Shown in pieces: positions 4,455-27,625 of a DNA stretch of 33,363 nt. The stretch comes from an uncultured Bacillota bacterium (GTDB lineage Bacteria; Bacillota_I; Bacilli_A; RF39; UBA660). Made by a program: the position numbers and the translations under genes. How positions within the stretch are numbered: the first letter of the stretch is position 1; every line of letters begins with the position of its first letter. Below the pieces are notes generated by a model, which worked only from the letters and a program-made list of their open reading frames with translations, did no database searches and was not told the DNA's origin. The stretch is from positions 1-33,363 of the forward strand of contig CAOJZV010000012.1 of assembly GCA_948466255.1 (NCBI GenBank), in the 5' to 3' direction.

Positions 4455-4482
4455 ATAATTATAATAAATAAAGGTGAAAAGA

Positions 4483-5352
4483 ATGAGAAGAAGAAAAAGA
4501 AGAAAGCAAAGGAAAATGATATTAATATCAAGTTTAACATTATTATTCATAATAACAGTCGGATATGCGGCATTTCAGACAAATATAAATATAACAGCTA
4601 AAGGAAATATCCTAGAAAAAGGAATAACAATAAATGAATTAAAAAATAAAGTAACAACATCAGGAGATGGCTTATATGTGAATACATATGAAGAAGGAAG
4701 ATATGTCTACAAAGGAGCAAATCCAGATAACTATATAACCTTTAATAATGAAACATGGAGGATTATCGCTATAGAATCTGACAATACTTTAAAAATTATT
4801 AAAAAGGATAACATAGGGGCGTTAGCTTGGGATTCAGACGGAGATACCGATTGGGCAAAGCCTGCCACATTAAATACTTATTTAAATGAAACATTTTATA
4901 ACAAAATAAACGATAAAGATAGAAGTTTAATTGTTGAACATGATTTTGGGATAGGACCTGTATCTGTTAGTGATTCAAATATGATAAAACATCTCGAATC
5001 AGAAAATAGTATAAAATGGAATGGTCATATAGGACTTATGAGTGCAAGTGAAATAATAATGGCTAACTCAAATATAGAACAATGCGGAAATTTTAAAATA
5101 AATTATGATAATAGGGAGGTATGTAAAATTACCAATTATATGATTCCAAAATCAGGATTATTTTGGACTATCACTCTTAATAATGATTCCTCATTTCCTG
5201 TTTTAGGTATTACTAATGCTGGGTATCCAAGTGGAGTTGGGACTACTACTGCTACTTTTAATATTTTACCAGTAATATATATTAATTCTGATATAACTTT
5301 ATCCGGTGAAGGAACAGAAATAAATCCATATAAAATATTAACAAATAAATAA
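4483..5352 (+). CDS. DUF6273-like surface protein, paralog 2
   Basis: I chose the ATG at 4483 because SD AAAGGTG (4470-4476) sits 6 nt upstream; a longer frame from the GTG at 4474 would start inside that SD. The 289-residue protein has a poly-Arg/Lys N-terminus, a hydrophobic segment (about residues 11-30) ending VGYAAFQTNINI, and then the conserved block (TTSGDGLY, GANPDNYITFNNETWRII). A shorter variable region follows with TLNTYLNETFYN, GHIGLMS, QCGNF...VCKITNY, FWTIT and LPVIYIN. Motif order suggests a DUF6273-like domain. Unlike paralogs 1 and 3 it lacks the first Cys pair. The N-terminus implies Sec export with either a cleaved signal or a membrane anchor. Function unknown. Expression is probably set by the G-tract immediately upstream. 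Confidence 0.75.
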   Translation: MRRRKRRKQRKMILISSLTLLFIITVGYAAFQTNINITAKGNILEKGITINELKNKVTTSGDGLYVNTYEEGRYVYKGANPDNYITFNNETWRIIAIESDNTLKIIKKDNIGALAWDSDGDTDWAKPATLNTYLNETFYNKINDKDRSLIVEHDFGIGPVSVSDSNMIKHLESENSIKWNGHIGLMSASEIIMANSNIEQCGNFKINYDNREVCKITNYMIPKSGLFWTITLNNDSSFPVLGITNAGYPSGVGTTTATFNILPVIYINSDITLSGEGTEINPYKILTNK

Positions 5353-17059: not shown

Positions 17060-17108
17060 AGTATAAAGATAAGCAAATAGGAAATATTAAAAAGTATAGG
17101 TGAAAAAT

Positions 17109-18095
17109 ATGAGAAGAAGAAGACGAAGAAAACAAAGAAAGATAATAATAATATCAAGTCTAACATTATTATTAATAATGACAGTAGGCTATGCCGCTTT
17201 TCAAACAAATATAAATATAACAGCTAAAGGAAATATATTAGAAAAAGGAATAACGATAAATGAACTAAAAAATAAAGTAACAACATCAGGTGATGGATTA
17301 TATAAAGACACATATGAAACAAATAGATATATTTATAGAGGAGCAAATCCAGATAACTATATAACATTTAACAATGAATTATGGAGAATAATTTCTATAG
17401 AAAATGATAATACATTAAAAATAATAAGAAACGAAAGTATTGGAAATATGCCATATGATACAGATAACAGGTATCAAGAAAATGGATATTGTAGCCATGA
17501 ATATAATAAAACTCACGGATGTAATGTATGGGGGAGTAAAACAACAATGTTAGATACGAATGGAAATAACATAACAAAATTAATGCCTTTTAATGAACAA
17601 ATGGAACGAATTCTACCTGAAAAAGAAGGTACTTTAAATACTTATTTAAATACAGAATATTATAATAACTTATCTAATGATAAAGAAAAAATAGTTATTC
17701 ATAGATGGAATGTTGGTCAAATAATGTTAACAACAAATCAAACGTTGGAAACAGACATATCTCAGGAAAAAGCAAATAAATGGGATGGGAAAGTTGCTTT
17801 AATAAATGGTTCTGATTATCTTAAAGCAAGTCTTAATAGTGAATGTAAAGGCTTATATTTTTCACGTGTAAGTCCGTATCCTTGTAAGGATATTAATTGG
17901 CTACTTAGAACTTCATGGACAATATCAAGCGGATATTTCCAACATAGTCAGTGGAATATAGCTAATAAGAGTTCTGGGGCCCTTGGCCACAGTTTTACAA
18001 ATGGTGAGGCGGGTATATATCCAACACTTCATTTAAATTCAAATATAATATTAACTGGGAAAGGTACAGAAACAAAGCCATATGTGATACATTAA
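17109..18095 (+). CDS. DUF6273-like surface protein, paralog 3
   Basis: The ATG at 17109 is chosen because AGGTG (17098-17102) is its SD; the GTG at 17100 overlaps that SD. The 328-residue protein begins with an Arg/Lys-rich stretch and a hydrophobic segment ending VGYAAFQTNINI. Up to about residue 100 it is nearly identical to paralog 2 (GITINELKNKVTTSGDGLY, GANPDNYITFNNE). After that it carries a Cys pair (GYC...GCNVWG, shared with paralog 1), TLNTYLNTEYYN, GKVALINGSDYL, a second Cys pair, LLRTSWTIS and the C-terminal PTLHLNSNIIL. Motif order suggests a DUF6273-like extracellular domain. Function unknown; a switchable surface antigen or adhesin is inference. Confidence 0.75.
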   Translation: MRRRRRRKQRKIIIISSLTLLLIMTVGYAAFQTNINITAKGNILEKGITINELKNKVTTSGDGLYKDTYETNRYIYRGANPDNYITFNNELWRIISIENDNTLKIIRNESIGNMPYDTDNRYQENGYCSHEYNKTHGCNVWGSKTTMLDTNGNNITKLMPFNEQMERILPEKEGTLNTYLNTEYYNNLSNDKEKIVIHRWNVGQIMLTTNQTLETDISQEKANKWDGKVALINGSDYLKASLNSECKGLYFSRVSPYPCKDINWLLRTSWTISSGYFQHSQWNIANKSSGALGHSFTNGEAGIYPTLHLNSNIILTGKGTETKPYVIH

Positions 18096-20720: not shown

Positions 20721-22426
20721 TGATGATAAGTAAAGGGCAAAAAATTAATGATCGTTATGAAATTATTCGTTTAATTGGCGAAGGTGGTATGGCTAATGTA
20801 TATTTAGCTTATGATGTAATTTTAGATCGTAAAGTTGCAGTTAAAGTATTAAGAGGTGATTTAGCTGAAGATGAGAAATTCGTAAGAAGATTTCAAAGAG
20901 AGGCTATTGCTGCTAGTTCTTTAAGCCATCCTAATATTGTAGAGGTTTATGATGTTGGAGAAGATGATGGTAAATATTTTATTGTTATGGAATATGTTGA
21001 TGGTAAAACTTTAAAAAGCTTAATTAAGAAAAGAGGCGCACTTACTTTACCTGAGGTAATTGATATTATGTTACAACTTACTTCAGCTATTGGTTGTGCT
21101 CACGAAAGTTATATTATTCATCGTGATATTAAACCACAAAATGTTATTATTTTAGAAGATGGTAGAGTCAAAGTCATGGATTTTGGTATTGCAGCTCAGC
21201 TTAATAGTAATGATTTAACTCAAACTAATAGTGTTATGGGTACTGTATATTATTTACCTCCTGAGCAAGCTAATGGTAATGTAACTACTGCTAAAAGTGA
21301 TATATATTCTTTGGGTATTTTAATGTATGAACTTGTTGTTGGTAAAGTACCTTTTAAGGGTGATAGTCCTGTAGAAGTTGCAATTAAACAAATGCGTGAA
21401 AAAATTCCTGATATCACTTTAGCTAATCCTGATATCCCACAATCTATTGAAAATATAATTTTGAGAGCTTGTGCTAAAAACCCTAAAAATAGATATGAAT
21501 CTATAGAAGAGATGCATAAAGATTTAGAAACTGCTTTAGATTCAGACCGTTTTAATGAAGCAAGAGTAGTCTATGAGTATCCAGAAAGTAACTTTGATGA
21601 ACCTGAAAAATTACCTGCTAATGCTAAACGAAGTGATCGTAATTCTGATAAAGATGAGGATAAAAAAGATAAAAGGCTTAATAAGATGACTAAAGTTTTA
21701 ATTGGTGTAGCTAGTGCTTTAGTTGTAGCTTTGTTATTTGTTTTTATTATTTATCCTAAGTTTATTTCAAAACCATCTATAGAAGTTCCTGATGTTTCTG
21801 ATATGTCAGTCTCTCAGGCAGAAAAAACTTTAGAAGATGAGGGGTTTCAAGTAGCTTCTAAAACAAAGAAAAAAGCTAGTGATGATATTAAGAAGGGGAA
21901 AGTTATTGAAACTGACCCTGAGGCTGGAAGAACAATTAAAAAGGGAAGTAAAATTACTTTAATTGTATCTAGCGGTAGTGAAAAGCTTAAAATCGAGGAT
22001 TATACTGGCGAAAACTATTATGAAGTTAAAGCTAAATTAGAAGCTGCAGGAATTACTGTTGAAACTGAAACTAAAGATACTATCAAAAGTGATTCTGCTA
22101 AAGAAAATATTATTTTAAGTCAAGATATAGAGCCTGGTAAAAAATTAGGGAAAGGTGATACTATTATTTTAACTATTCCTAACATTTATGAAGCTTACCC
22201 TGATTTTGTTAAAGAAGCAGCTACTGAAGATGATGTAAGAACTTTCTGTGCTAAACATGATATTAAATTGGAAGTTGGTTATCAAAGTGATGCACAAAAA
22301 TTGGATGGAACTGTTATTTATCAAAATCAAACTGCTGGTAGTAAGATTAATTCAGATTCTACTTTAAGAGTTACTATTGTAAGCAACATGCCATCATCAC
22401 CTGATTCTAATTCTGAGGATGAATAA
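20720..22426 (+). CDS. prkC: PASTA-domain Ser/Thr kinase PrkC
   Basis: The 568-residue protein has a cytoplasmic kinase domain (G-loop GEGGMANVY at 20-28, Lys42, HRDIKPQN from His134, MDFG), a Lys/Asp-rich linker, and one membrane helix (about residues 327-347). Three extracellular PASTA repeats follow (about 355-418, 419-487, 488-556). PASTA kinases sense muropeptides or lipid II and control wall growth and spore germination. SD AAAGGAGG at 20705-20712. Confidence 0.96.
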   Translation: MMISKGQKINDRYEIIRLIGEGGMANVYLAYDVILDRKVAVKVLRGDLAEDEKFVRRFQREAIAASSLSHPNIVEVYDVGEDDGKYFIVMEYVDGKTLKSLIKKRGALTLPEVIDIMLQLTSAIGCAHESYIIHRDIKPQNVIILEDGRVKVMDFGIAAQLNSNDLTQTNSVMGTVYYLPPEQANGNVTTAKSDIYSLGILMYELVVGKVPFKGDSPVEVAIKQMREKIPDITLANPDIPQSIENIILRACAKNPKNRYESIEEMHKDLETALDSDRFNEARVVYEYPESNFDEPEKLPANAKRSDRNSDKDEDKKDKRLNKMTKVLIGVASALVVALLFVFIIYPKFISKPSIEVPDVSDMSVSQAEKTLEDEGFQVASKTKKKASDDIKKGKVIETDPEAGRTIKKGSKITLIVSSGSEKLKIEDYTGENYYEVKAKLEAAGITVETETKDTIKSDSAKENIILSQDIEPGKKLGKGDTIILTIPNIYEAYPDFVKEAATEDDVRTFCAKHDIKLEVGYQSDAQKLDGTVIYQNQTAGSKINSDSTLRVTIVSNMPSSPDSNSEDE

Positions 22427-23259
22427 TGGCTAGAGGTAGAATTGTTAAACAAATTAGTAATACTTATACAGTAGATTTTGAAGGGGAAATTTATGAGTGT
22501 AAGGCTAGAGGAAAATTTCGTAATATTAATGTGACACCTTTAGTTGGTGACTTTGTTAACTTTGATATTGATAATAATTATATATTAGAAGTATTACCTA
22601 GAAAAAATGAGCTTACAAGACCTAGTATTTGTAATATAGATCAGGCAGTAATTATCTCTAGTTTGAAACAGCCGGATTTTGATACAAATTTACTTGATAA
22701 GTTACTTTGTATTATAGAATTTAATAATATTAAACCAATTATTATTTTTACAAAAGGTGATTTACTTAGTAAAAGTGAAATGGCTGATTTTAAAAAATAC
22801 TATGATTATTATAAAAAATATTATGAAGTTTATATGAATACCGAACTTTCAAAAATTAAGAAAATATTTAATAATAAAGTAAGTGTCTTTACTGGCCAAA
22901 GTGGGGCAGGTAAAAGTACTTTACTTAATAATTTAGATAAATCTCTTAATATTAAAATAGGAGAAATATCTTTAGCTTTAAATCGTGGAAGGCATACTAC
23001 AAGACATACCTCATTATTAAAAATATATGATGGTTTAGTTGCTGATACTCCAGGTTTTTCGGCTTTAAATTTTGGGGAAATGACACCTAGTGATATTAGA
23101 GATAATTTTACTGAATTTAATGATTATAGAGGTGAGTGTAAATACAAGGACTGTATGCATAATAAAGAAGATGATTGTATTATTAAAGACAAAGTATTAG
23201 AGGGCACTATATTGAACTCTCGTTATCAAAATTATATAAATTTTATAAATAAGGGGTGA
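22426..23259 (+). CDS. rsgA: Ribosome small subunit-dependent GTPase RsgA
   Basis: The 277-residue circularly permuted GTPase has an N-terminal OB fold, a P-loop GQSGAGKST at 157-165, DTPGF, and the C-terminal zinc knuckle Cys238, Cys243, His245, Cys251. It acts in 30S maturation. B. subtilis CpgA (YloQ) has the same place after prkC. Confidence 0.95.
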   Translation: MARGRIVKQISNTYTVDFEGEIYECKARGKFRNINVTPLVGDFVNFDIDNNYILEVLPRKNELTRPSICNIDQAVIISSLKQPDFDTNLLDKLLCIIEFNNIKPIIIFTKGDLLSKSEMADFKKYYDYYKKYYEVYMNTELSKIKKIFNNKVSVFTGQSGAGKSTLLNNLDKSLNIKIGEISLALNRGRHTTRHTSLLKIYDGLVADTPGFSALNFGEMTPSDIRDNFTEFNDYRGECKYKDCMHNKEDDCIIKDKVLEGTILNSRYQNYINFINKG

Positions 23260-23263
23260 TTCT

Positions 23264-24268
23264 ATGAAAATATCAGCTTCTTTCCTTAAAATTCAAGATA
23301 AGGAAGATAAAATTTTAGAGTTAGATAAATATACTGATTATATGCATTATGATGTTATGGACGGAAATTTTACTGAAAGTAAGACTCCGTCTTTAATCGG
23401 TTTTGATGTAAAAAAACCGAAGGATGTACATTTAATGGTTACTGAATTAAAAAAATATATTGATTTATATAGTTCTATTAATCCTTTGTTTATGACTTTT
23501 CATGTAGAGGTTACTGATAATGTCATGCAGTATATTGATTATATTAAATCAAAAGGTATTAAAGTTGGTCTTGCTTTAAATCCTGCAACATCTATTAACG
23601 AAATCATACCTTATTTAGAATATATTGATATGGTATTAGTTATGTCAGTTGTTCCAGGTAAAGGTGGGCAAGCCTTTATTGACGTAACTGATAAAATAGA
23701 AAAATTGTATTCATATAGAAAAGAAAATAATTTAAATTATTTGATAGAAGTTGATGGAGGAATTAATGATAAAACCGCTAGTTTAGTAAATAAAGCTGAT
23801 ATTTTAGTTTCTGGTTCATATATTACTGATAGTAATGATTATTTAGATAAAATTAATAAATTGAGGAGTATTTTTATGAATAGAGGATTTACATTAGCTG
23901 AATTAATGGCAGTTATTGTAATTATTGGAATAATTGCGGTTATTACAACTATGACGGTTGATAGAAGTATTAAAAATAGTCGTTATGATACATGTCTTGC
24001 TCAGGAAAAGAATATTATCGAGGGTGCTAAAATGTGGTCTTATGATAATGCAGGAGAATTAGAAAAACTAGATAAAAAAGAAATAACAAACATAACGATT
24101 TCAATTCCTAAACTTCAAAATGGTAATTATATTGAAGATGGTCTTAAAAGCCCAATGACAAATGAAGTATATTCTACAGATACAAATGTTACAATAACTT
24201 CTTCTAATGGAACTAGTTATGATTATGAAGTTATATATGGGAAAGAAGAAGAAAAATGTTCAAAATAG
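23264..24268 (+). CDS. rpe: Ribulose-phosphate 3-epimerase fused in frame to a type IV prepilin
   Basis: Residues 1-204 are a ribulose-5-phosphate 3-epimerase of the pentose phosphate pathway. It has SAS at the N-terminus, metal-site His28 and Asp30 (HYDVMDG), His56 (DVHLMV), PGKGGQ and Asp164 (VDGG). The order rsgA-rpe is the Bacilli order. There is no stop at the end of the epimerase. The frame continues through KLRSIFM into residues 205-334, a prepilin with MNRGFTLAELMAVIVIIG. An SD (GAGGAG, 23863-23868) and ATG (23876) inside the frame are ideally placed to start the prepilin separately. A TGA sits one frame away at 23862, so a one-base indel would restore two genes. Products could be a fusion, a separate pilin, or both. 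Confidence 0.85.
   Translation: MKISASFLKIQDKEDKILELDKYTDYMHYDVMDGNFTESKTPSLIGFDVKKPKDVHLMVTELKKYIDLYSSINPLFMTFHVEVTDNVMQYIDYIKSKGIKVGLALNPATSINEIIPYLEYIDMVLVMSVVPGKGGQAFIDVTDKIEKLYSYRKENNLNYLIEVDGGINDKTASLVNKADILVSGSYITDSNDYLDKINKLRSIFMNRGFTLAELMAVIVIIGIIAVITTMTVDRSIKNSRYDTCLAQEKNIIEGAKMWSYDNAGELEKLDKKEITNITISIPKLQNGNYIEDGLKSPMTNEVYSTDTNVTITSSNGTSYDYEVIYGKEEEKCSK
23876..24268 (+). CDS. Prepilin-type protein, internal start within the rpe frame
   Basis: The ATG at 23876 is 7 nt after GAGGAG. It gives a 130-residue protein with the type IV prepilin/pseudopilin N-terminus: MNRG, cleavage before Phe, Glu at +5 (FTLAE), then a hydrophobic helix to about residue 25. The rest is a small globular domain with two cysteines (one near residue 40, one next to the C-terminus). 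Leaders of known prepilins are short, so processing by a prepilin peptidase fits this start far better than a 208-residue leader. No peptidase, ATPase or other pilin gene is visible nearby. Confidence 0.7.
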   Translation: MNRGFTLAELMAVIVIIGIIAVITTMTVDRSIKNSRYDTCLAQEKNIIEGAKMWSYDNAGELEKLDKKEITNITISIPKLQNGNYIEDGLKSPMTNEVYSTDTNVTITSSNGTSYDYEVIYGKEEEKCSK

Positions 24269-24277
24269 GAGGTTATT

Positions 24278-27200
24278 ATGAAAAAAATAACTGCTGATGG
24301 GAATGAAGCATGTGCACATGCTTCTTATATGTTTACAGAAGTAGCGGGTATTTATCCAATTACGCCTTCTAGTCCAATGCCAGAACACATTGATGCATGG
24401 GCTTCTAAAGGTAAGAAAAACATTTTTAATGATACAGTTAAAGTAGTAGAGATGCAAAGTGAAGCTGGGGCTATTGGAATGGTGCATGGTAGCCTTCAAT
24501 CTGGGCTTTTGACTAGTACTTATACAGCTAGTCAGGGATTACTTTTAATGATACCTAATATGTATAAAATTGCTGGTGAAATGCTTCCAGGTGTTATACA
24601 TGTAGCTGCTCGTTCTTTAGCAACGCATGCTTTAAGTATTTTTGGCGATCACCAGGATGTTTATCAGGCTAGGGCTACTGGTTTTTGTATGCTTGCATCT
24701 TCTAGTGTTCAGGATGCTTACTATCTAGGTTTAGTTAGTCACTTATCAGCTATTAAAGCATCGCTTCCATTTCTACACTTTTTTGATGGCTTTAGAACTA
24801 GTCATGAATTTAATAAAATTGATATTTTTGAAGATGATGAAATTAAAGGTTTATTGGATTTAGAATCTTTAGAAAAGTTTAGAAATAGAGCTTTAAATCC
24901 AGATAAACCTGTTACTAGAGGAACTAACCAAAACGGTGATATTTATTTTCAAGTAACTGAGTCAAGAAATAAATTTTATGATAATGCGGTAGATATTGTC
25001 TGCGAATATATGAACAAGATAAATGAAAAAGCGGGTACTTCATATAAACCATTTAATTATTATGGTAATCCTAAGGCAACAAAAGTTATTGTAGCTATGG
25101 GTTCTGTTTGTGAAACGATTAAAGATACTATAGATTATTTAAATGGTGAAATTGGTTTAGTTGAAGTTCATTTATATAGACCTTTTAGTACTAAACATTT
25201 ACTTGATGTTTTACCTGAGAGCGTTAAAAAGGTGGCAGTACTTGATAGAACTAAGGAAGCTGGTAGTAATGGTGAACCGCTTTATTTAGATATTGTAAGT
25301 GCACTTAAAGATAAAGATATTACTATTGTTGGTGGACGCTATGGTTTATCTAGTAAAGATACTACACCTGGTATGATTAAGGCAGTATTTGATTCTTTAG
25401 ATAATCCAAAAAATAATTTTACGATCGGTATTGATGATGATGTTACTAATTTAAGTTTAGATTATGAAGAAATAGAAACTTCTAATGATGAAGCTTTCTT
25501 ACTTTATGGTTATGGTAGTGATGGAACAGTAAGTACAGCTAAAACATTACTTGAATTAGTTGGTGACCATAGTAATATGTATGTTCAAGGTTATTTTGAA
25601 TATGATTCTAAAAAATCAGGTGGAGTTACTGTTAGTAATTTAAGATTTTCTAAAGATAAAATTAGAAAGACTTATTTTGTAACAAATGCTAAATTAGTCT
25701 TAGTTACTAAAGATAGTTATTTAAATGAATTTGATATTATTAGTAATATTAGAGAAAATGGAACTTTAATTATTAATACTATTAGAACTGAAGATGAAGT
25801 AAATACCTTATTAAGTCCTTTTAAAAAGGTTTTAAAAGATAAAAATATAAAAGTATATACTATTAATGCTTATGAACTTGCTCGTAAATGCGGGTTAGGT
25901 AATAAAATCAGTATGATTATGGCAAGTGCTATTTTAAAAGTTTCTGATTTATTTAATTATGATAAATGCATTTCTATAGTTAAAGATATTGTTAAAAAGA
26001 AATTTTCAGTTAAAAGTATGGAAATAGTGGAAGCTAATATTTTAGGAATTGATGAAGCAAATAATTATTTAAAAGAACTTATTTTAAATGATGAAACTAG
26101 TGAATTTAATTTAGATACCTCTTCAGTTTATAAAGCTATTAGCCATAGAAAAGGTAATGAACTTAAGGTTTCAGCTTTTAAAGACATGGAAGATGGAACA
26201 ATCAAACATACTAATCCTAACGGCAGGGGACTTAGCGATATTGTTCCTAAATGGTTAAGTGAAAATTGTATTCAGTGTGGAATGTGTAGTTTAGTTTGTC
26301 CACATGGCGTTATTAGACCTTTCTTATTAGATAAAAATGAATATGAAAAAGCTCCTGAAAGTATTAAAGAAAAATGTGTGCCTGCGATAGGGGTAGATGA
26401 ACATTATTTTATAATTGGTATTTCTAAAGAAAACTGTACTGGATGCGGTGTTTGTATTAATACTTGTCCTGGTAAAAAAGGTGAAAAAGCTTTATCTTTC
26501 CACCAATATACTAGTGATGATGAATTTGATTATTTAGTAAATAATATTAAAGAAAAAGACTTAGTTAAACTAGAAACTATTAAAGGTAGTCAATTTAAAA
26601 AGCCTAAATTTGCTTTCCATGGGGCATGTGCAGGATGTGGTGAAACAGCATATATTAAATTGCTTACCCAAATGTTTGGTGATAATTTAATGATTGCTAA
26701 TGCAACTGGATGTTCTTCTATTTATGGAGCATCTATGCCCGATATGCCTTATGATTTACCTTGGGCCAATAGTTTGTTTGAAGATAATGCTGAATTTGGC
26801 TATGGTATGCTTATGGGCTATGAAACTGCTAGAAACAGAATTAGAAATTATATGGAAAGTCATGAAGATGAATTATTTGAAAAATGGCTTAATAATTCTA
26901 ATGACTATAAAATAACTAAAGAAGTTTATGAAAATATAGATTATGATAAACATCTAGAACTTAAGGATTTAAAAAATTATATAACATCTAGAAGTATTTG
27001 GGCTGTTGGTGGTGATGGCTGGGCTTATGATATTGGCTTTGGTGGAATTGATCATGTTTTATCTAGTGGCGATAATATCAACATTTTAGTACTTGATACA
27101 CAGGTTTATTCTAATACTGGAGGACAATCTTCTAAATCAACACCTAAAGGAGCTGTGGCTGAGTTTGCAGCTACTGGTAAGAAAAATAATAAAAAAGATT

Positions 27201-27625
27201 TAGCTAGAATTGCAATGAGTTATCCTAATGTTTATGTCGCACAAGTTAGTTTAGGAGCTAATATGATGCAGGTCATTAAAGCTTTTGATGAAGCTAATAA
27301 ACATAATGGACCTTCAATTATTATTGCTTATACACCTTGTATTTCACATGGTATTAAAGGTGGTATGGGGCAAAGTGTTAATATGGAAGCTTTAGCTACT
27401 AAATGCGGTTATTTCCCAACATTTAGATATAATGGAGATCTTACTTTAGATAGTAAAAATCCTGATTTTGGTTTATATGATGAATTTTTAAATAAACAAT
27501 CTAGATATACGATGCTTAAGGCTGTTAATCCAGAAAAAGCACAAGAATTACTAGAAGAAAATAAAGAAAATGCGATAAAAAGATTTGAATATTATCAGAA
27601 TTTAGCTAGTCAAAATGACAAATAA
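24278..27625 (+). CDS. nifJ: Pyruvate:ferredoxin (flavodoxin) oxidoreductase
   Basis: This 1115-residue single-chain PFOR converts pyruvate and CoA to acetyl-CoA, CO2 and reduced ferredoxin. Visible are the N-terminal pyruvate-binding domain (GIYPITPSSPM), the central gamma and CoA regions, two [4Fe-4S] ferredoxin motifs starting at Cys664 and Cys720, and the proximal cluster region ACAGCGE. The TPP site GDGWAYDIGFGG (from residue 912) continues to VYSNTGGQ. Full length. SD AGGAGG, 9 nt after the prepilin stop, so it may be read with that operon. Indicates anaerobic metabolism. Confidence 0.97.
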   Translation: MKKITADGNEACAHASYMFTEVAGIYPITPSSPMPEHIDAWASKGKKNIFNDTVKVVEMQSEAGAIGMVHGSLQSGLLTSTYTASQGLLLMIPNMYKIAGEMLPGVIHVAARSLATHALSIFGDHQDVYQARATGFCMLASSSVQDAYYLGLVSHLSAIKASLPFLHFFDGFRTSHEFNKIDIFEDDEIKGLLDLESLEKFRNRALNPDKPVTRGTNQNGDIYFQVTESRNKFYDNAVDIVCEYMNKINEKAGTSYKPFNYYGNPKATKVIVAMGSVCETIKDTIDYLNGEIGLVEVHLYRPFSTKHLLDVLPESVKKVAVLDRTKEAGSNGEPLYLDIVSALKDKDITIVGGRYGLSSKDTTPGMIKAVFDSLDNPKNNFTIGIDDDVTNLSLDYEEIETSNDEAFLLYGYGSDGTVSTAKTLLELVGDHSNMYVQGYFEYDSKKSGGVTVSNLRFSKDKIRKTYFVTNAKLVLVTKDSYLNEFDIISNIRENGTLIINTIRTEDEVNTLLSPFKKVLKDKNIKVYTINAYELARKCGLGNKISMIMASAILKVSDLFNYDKCISIVKDIVKKKFSVKSMEIVEANILGIDEANNYLKELILNDETSEFNLDTSSVYKAISHRKGNELKVSAFKDMEDGTIKHTNPNGRGLSDIVPKWLSENCIQCGMCSLVCPHGVIRPFLLDKNEYEKAPESIKEKCVPAIGVDEHYFIIGISKENCTGCGVCINTCPGKKGEKALSFHQYTSDDEFDYLVNNIKEKDLVKLETIKGSQFKKPKFAFHGACAGCGETAYIKLLTQMFGDNLMIANATGCSSIYGASMPDMPYDLPWANSLFEDNAEFGYGMLMGYETARNRIRNYMESHEDELFEKWLNNSNDYKITKEVYENIDYDKHLELKDLKNYITSRSIWAVGGDGWAYDIGFGGIDHVLSSGDNINILVLDTQVYSNTGGQSSKSTPKGAVAEFAATGKKNNKKDLARIAMSYPNVYVAQVSLGANMMQVIKAFDEANKHNGPSIIIAYTPCISHGIKGGMGQSVNMEALATKCGYFPTFRYNGDLTLDSKNPDFGLYDEFLNKQSRYTMLKAVNPEKAQELLEENKENAIKRFEYYQNLASQNDK

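Follow-up and report, generated by a model that had tools for sequence, protein, structure and literature searches.

Single genes whose translation product is split into two working proteins are known from very different settings. The cytochrome b/c1 protein FbcH of Bradyrhizobium is a polyprotein resolved by a secretion-linked peptidase, and both of its parts are membrane proteins that join one complex. In the eukaryotic fusions of ubiquitin with ribosomal proteins, a dedicated protease removes the N-terminal domain, and equal amounts of two proteins result. The locus described here, in which ribulose-phosphate 3-epimerase (Rpe) runs into a type IV prepilin, would share with FbcH that one bacterial gene gives two products separated by a signal-type peptidase, but here a soluble metabolic enzyme is linked to an unrelated pilus subunit and the predicted cut lies on the cytoplasmic side. 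With the ubiquitin fusions it would share the removal of an independent N-terminal domain by a dedicated protease, yielding equal amounts of both proteins, although the two are unrelated in sequence, protease and compartment.

The closest comparison is with type IV prepilins cut by PilD (PF01478). Common to both are the class III motif G/FTLAE (the slash marks the cut), a hydrophobic N-terminal helix, a glutamate at +5, positive residues before the cut, and a peptidase and pilC in the genome. Published leaders, in contrast, are short: those of S. sanguinis prepilins comprise 8-18 amino acids (PMC6497953), and 26 amino acids have been termed an unusually long leader for an archaellin (PMC12448462). 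Here the leader would be a complete enzyme of ~207 residues, which is far outside the leader lengths that we found described. Relative to an ordinary Rpe, the full barrel and the active-site residues are retained, whereas the stop codon is absent and the C-terminal helix also supplies the basic end of the prepilin leader. Our search of the open literature for precedents of an Rpe-pilin fusion or polyprotein returned nothing relevant.

The stretch of DNA analysed, called the window throughout, comprises 33,363 nucleotides of an uncultured Bacillota bacterium. Translation of the window gives a single open frame of 334 amino acids at 23264-24268, ending in TAG, whose parts and neighbours are as follows.

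22426..23259, + strand: rsgA, the upstream neighbour, used in the locus tree
23264..23869, + strand: Rpe domain, residues 1-202, a complete TIM-barrel epimerase (profile matches, structure match, model)
23864..23868, + strand: internal Shine-Dalgarno-like (SD) AGGAG within Rpe codons (sequence)
23870..23887, + strand: junction peptide IFMNRG, residues 203-208, the end of the prepilin leader, with the predicted cut after G208 (sequence; hinge in the model)
23876..23878, + strand: internal in-frame ATG, a possible second start for the pilin (sequence; missing in 20 of 24 fused relatives)
23888..24265, + strand: mature type IV pilin domain, beginning FTLAE, with two cysteines at mature positions 36 and 124 (sequence, profile)
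24266..24268, + strand: TAG stop of the fused frame (sequence)
24278..27625, + strand: pyruvate:ferredoxin oxidoreductase (nifJ-type), the downstream neighbour, used in the locus tree

A sequence-only reading of the window had described a complete Rpe that continues without a stop into a prepilin with a canonical cleavage site, and both the translation and the matches to PF00834 and PF07963 bear this out. The SD and ATG that it had placed within the frame are indeed there, separated by 7 nucleotides, as is the TGA one frame over at the SD (23862-23864); a second TGA follows in that same frame at 23877-23879, overlapping the ATG as ATGA. The predicted cleavage between G208 and F209 falls between 23887 and 23888. 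No RNA structure beyond that of shuffled controls was found at the junction.

For the enzyme half, the window protein matches PF00834 (ribulose-phosphate 3-epimerase) at residues 4-187 with 152.4 bits (cut-off 21.1) and NF004076 with 183.2 bits (cut-off 165), and it stays below the cut-off of the stricter equivalog TIGR01163 (160.9 versus 212.6). The best solved relative is 2fli, the Rpe of S. pyogenes; the match reaches residue 202, near the end of 2fli, which indicates that the domain is complete, and the predicted cut lies six residues further on. Four residues that we take to be the metal ligands and acid-base groups of the family, H28, D30, H56 and D164, are invariant across 23 fusions. 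By family profile and active-site residues this half is a ribulose-phosphate 3-epimerase, with its activity predicted. Searches with PF00834 found one Rpe gene per genome, near-complete genomes included, and no second, free Rpe in the genomes of the genus; one genome (G021) holds three PF00834 pieces, two of which resemble a single gene split by contig ends. Since rpe lacks its own stop and is present in a single copy, all Rpe of the fused species, the window's included, is made as fusion protein.

The second half matches the prepilin motif PF07963 at residues 206-228 (24.5 bits, cut-off 21.2) as well as TIGR02532 (30.3 bits, cut-off 16.3), and Rpe and prepilin domains occur together in all 23 fused proteins scanned. 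Every fusion keeps the cleavage motif, with G at -1 (A in G062), F at +1 and E at +5, and has two cysteines in the pilin part, as expected for an exported domain. All 11 fused genomes that were searched contain the peptidase family PF01478, and type IV pilus genes are present too; in the window's own genome (G000) the peptidase gene lies at G000:C7:10890-11216, directly after a pilC-type gene. The pilin half agrees with type IV prepilins in its motif and in the presence of a peptidase and an assembly platform elsewhere in the genome; its cleavage and its assembly into a filament are predicted. It departs from them in leader length, with 208 residues before the predicted cut; the internal ATG of the window, if used, would give a leader of 4 residues, and 20 of the 24 fused species have no such start. 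As a separate observation, the unfused genome G013, which is 92% complete and has prepilins, shows no PF01478 match.

The window's genus consists of uncultured Bacilli and is represented solely by metagenome-assembled genomes; public records of related loci likewise come from metagenome-assembled uncultured Bacilli, some of the samples being labelled Lapin. We compared 44 genomes of this genus, all with an Rpe match. The sequence-only reading had suggested looking for the same fusion in relatives: rpe and prepilin share one frame in 24 genomes, are separate neighbours in 18, and are interrupted by a contig end inside the gene in 2, so that a genus with uniformly separate genes, the counter-case it had named, is not what was found. 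In 17 of the 18 separate pairs the two genes overlap out of frame, the pilin ATG usually overlapping the rpe stop by 4 nucleotides (ATGA) or by 8 (ATGAATAA), with the SD within rpe codons; in G015, also unfused, the pilin starts 84 nucleotides past the position of the rpe stop. Among the matches listed from 385 genomes of the order and 296 of the class, no Rpe-prepilin fusion was found outside the genus. One Rpe match from another family of the class (G655:C1:416125-416820) lies in an open frame of 453 amino acids with one TAA inside the match and may represent a different gene arrangement.

This distribution also settles a third option of the earlier reading, that a single base is wrong. The window comes from a draft genome that is 67.8% complete, and the gain or loss of one base close to the junction would split the frame into two genes, but the fusion recurs in independent assemblies of 24 species, most of them with a different junction and no internal start. 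We regard an assembly or base-calling error as extremely improbable. Because 24 of 44 congeneric genomes share it in frame, the fusion is real and is due neither to chance nor to a base error.

Is the pilin also made on its own? One explanation offered for the window was dual initiation; in the form considered here, the fusion is translated from the first ATG and a free pilin from the internal one, both being physiologically needed. It is plausible for the window, with its AGGAG and ATG, and for the two sister species G023 and G035, which have an AGGGG-like SD and ATG, possibly also for G001, which has the ATG and lacks the SD; moreover, unfused relatives begin their pilin at an overlapping ATG whose SD lies within rpe. 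Yet internal ATG and SD are kept together in only 3 of the 24 fused species, and in 20 the start codon at the pilin is absent, with no other start preceded by an SD of at least 4 bases within 30 codons (in G002, G004 and G063 an ATG occurs farther away and lacks an SD). A conserved internal start with SD, the mark of a dual-initiation nested gene, is thus not found, and we reject dual initiation as a general rule. It also would not provide free Rpe, since rpe is stopless. Overall we consider it unlikely that both products are required in this way. The alternative raised alongside it, a fusion whose leader is abnormally long, holds for the fused species in general, because 20 of 24 lack a start codon for the pilin; the cleavage that it implies is predicted from the motif.

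Conservation at the junction is informative in this context. In a clade of 16 species the peptide KLKKxLRNG/FTLAEL is invariant except at x, yet the synonymous positions of its codons vary between species. As a description of constraint rather than a formal test, pN/pS was taken as a simple pairwise average over related sequences: it is 0.096 across the nine codons of the junction (-8..0), compared with 0.42 and 0.316 in the two preceding Rpe stretches (the latter being the adjacent one), 0.137 in pilin residues 1-20 and 0.36 in residues 21-40; the junction thus lies below either flank. These values show that the junction is translated straight through in a single frame.

The window protein (pLDDT 91.9, pTM 0.65) and the G020 protein, which lacks the internal ATG (pLDDT 90.0, pTM 0.62), were modelled with AlphaFold; each model contains the barrel of Rpe and a pilin whose helix is long, the placement of the domains being uncertain at an overall pTM of only 0.62-0.65. 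A Foldseek search with the window model matched Rpe structures. The sole break between the C-terminal helix of Rpe and the pilin helix lies around the cleavage site, at residues 206-210 in the window protein and 211-215 in that of G020, and in the models the site looks reachable for a peptidase that would cut there. The fusion might instead never be cut, in which case the pilin helix would hold Rpe at the membrane. The Rpe fold is compatible with a membrane-proximal C-terminus and the junction constraint is unusual, but the motif residues at -1, +1 and +5 are retained in every fusion, and the whole pilin head is conserved together with its cysteine pair, more than a simple anchor would require. 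We judge an uncut fusion to be quite unlikely.

The probable reading, in our view, is that prepilin peptidase separates the two parts of an enzyme-pilin polyprotein in which Rpe serves as a leader of ~207 residues. It builds on features that are firm from the gene and its relatives, namely the frame, its conservation, the junction constraint, the single Rpe copy and the presence of the peptidase. Membrane topology, cleavage and the release of active Rpe would follow known prepilin biology (PMC10191384). Two genes that in relatives overlap in different frames, rpe and that of the prepilin, would have merged into one frame. The ribosome would make Rpe first; the pilin helix would then insert into the membrane while Rpe stays in the cytoplasm in place of the normal prepilin leader, and prepilin peptidase would cut after Gly208 (G-1). 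For this the peptidase would have to accept a folded domain of 207 residues that is followed by hardly any linker. The products would be a mature pilin in the membrane and, free in the cytoplasm, Rpe carrying a short basic tail. Most fused species would have no other route to the two products, whereas the window species, which has retained SD and ATG, may make additional unfused pilin from them.

To follow the history of the locus, a tree was built from the flanking genes rsgA and nifJ. At least five changes between fused and separate states are needed on it, each forced by well supported branches, with gains and losses indistinguishable from the counts alone. A single fused clade is rejected (p-AU 4e-217), and so is a single group of the seven fused species on the window's side (p-AU 4e-7, for a set chosen after seeing the tree). 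G001 is fused and its sister G009 is not; G005 and G066 are fused and their neighbour G013 is not. The joint probably arose more than once and is strongly conserved. In other genera of the family, the loci read show no frame with a prepilin motif next to rpe, and other families of the class have a thiN-like gene there (called by position and sequence), so the prepilin probably arrived next to rpe in the window's genus.

Why the genes merged is a question of cause, separate from mechanism. Stop loss in overlapping genes may have been harmless because prepilin peptidase undoes the fusion, whereupon the internal start decays and the fusion persists without benefit. This neutral course, compatible with the polyprotein explanation, fits the ancestral out-of-frame overlap of 4 or 8 nucleotides, the repeated state changes on the tree and the survival of intermediates that still have the start. 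The stronger constraint on the junction than on adjacent Rpe speaks against it, as does the absence of fusion among 41 enolase genes, although at least six genomes have an enolase followed by a prepilin. We hold it to be quite possible, if short of probable. That the fusion was repeatedly selected, locking the supply of Rpe and pilus subunit together and making release of the sole Rpe dependent on prepilin peptidase, appears doubtful.

The rpe-linked prepilin is the only fused one in the genomes examined. The window's genome, of 1 Mb, carries about 20 scattered prepilin genes (L070-L089), many directly behind or overlapping housekeeping genes that we named from their sequences: two enolases, gapdh before pgk, lysS, a valS-like gene, xseA/B, rpsP/khpA, a spo0A-like gene and a sigma factor. 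Among the large frames checked in this genome and six relatives, no other prepilin has a long N-terminal fusion; the motif lies near the start and the extra length is C-terminal. Several of these prepilins (L083, L093, L103-L118) are very large, at 350-860 amino acids, and their long C-terminal regions have an adhesin-like look. A module GxYKGxNPxNYxxFxNxxWRI makes up the C-terminal part of large prepilins and is shared by paralogous secreted proteins at 74-1003, 4474-5352 and 17100-18095 of the window and at L072, L094 and L095, whose only match is DUF6273, below threshold. Besides a second enolase, the window's genome has one (G000:C29:2080-3315) whose protein is 100% identical to that of G034 (G034:C46:539-1774), while the Rpe proteins of the same two species are only 67% identical; the enolase may reflect either a recent transfer or a misbinned contig.

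Within one genus, the locus offers a natural and repeated series, in which overlapping genes lead to an intermediate that has both starts and then to an obligate fusion, and hence a direct way to study the origin of bacterial polyproteins. If the proposed processing is true, prepilin peptidase handles a folded enzyme as a leader, which would widen the notion of a class III signal peptide, given that prediction tools look for a short leader close to the N-terminus. It would also make the production of a housekeeping enzyme, Rpe, dependent on a pilus protease.
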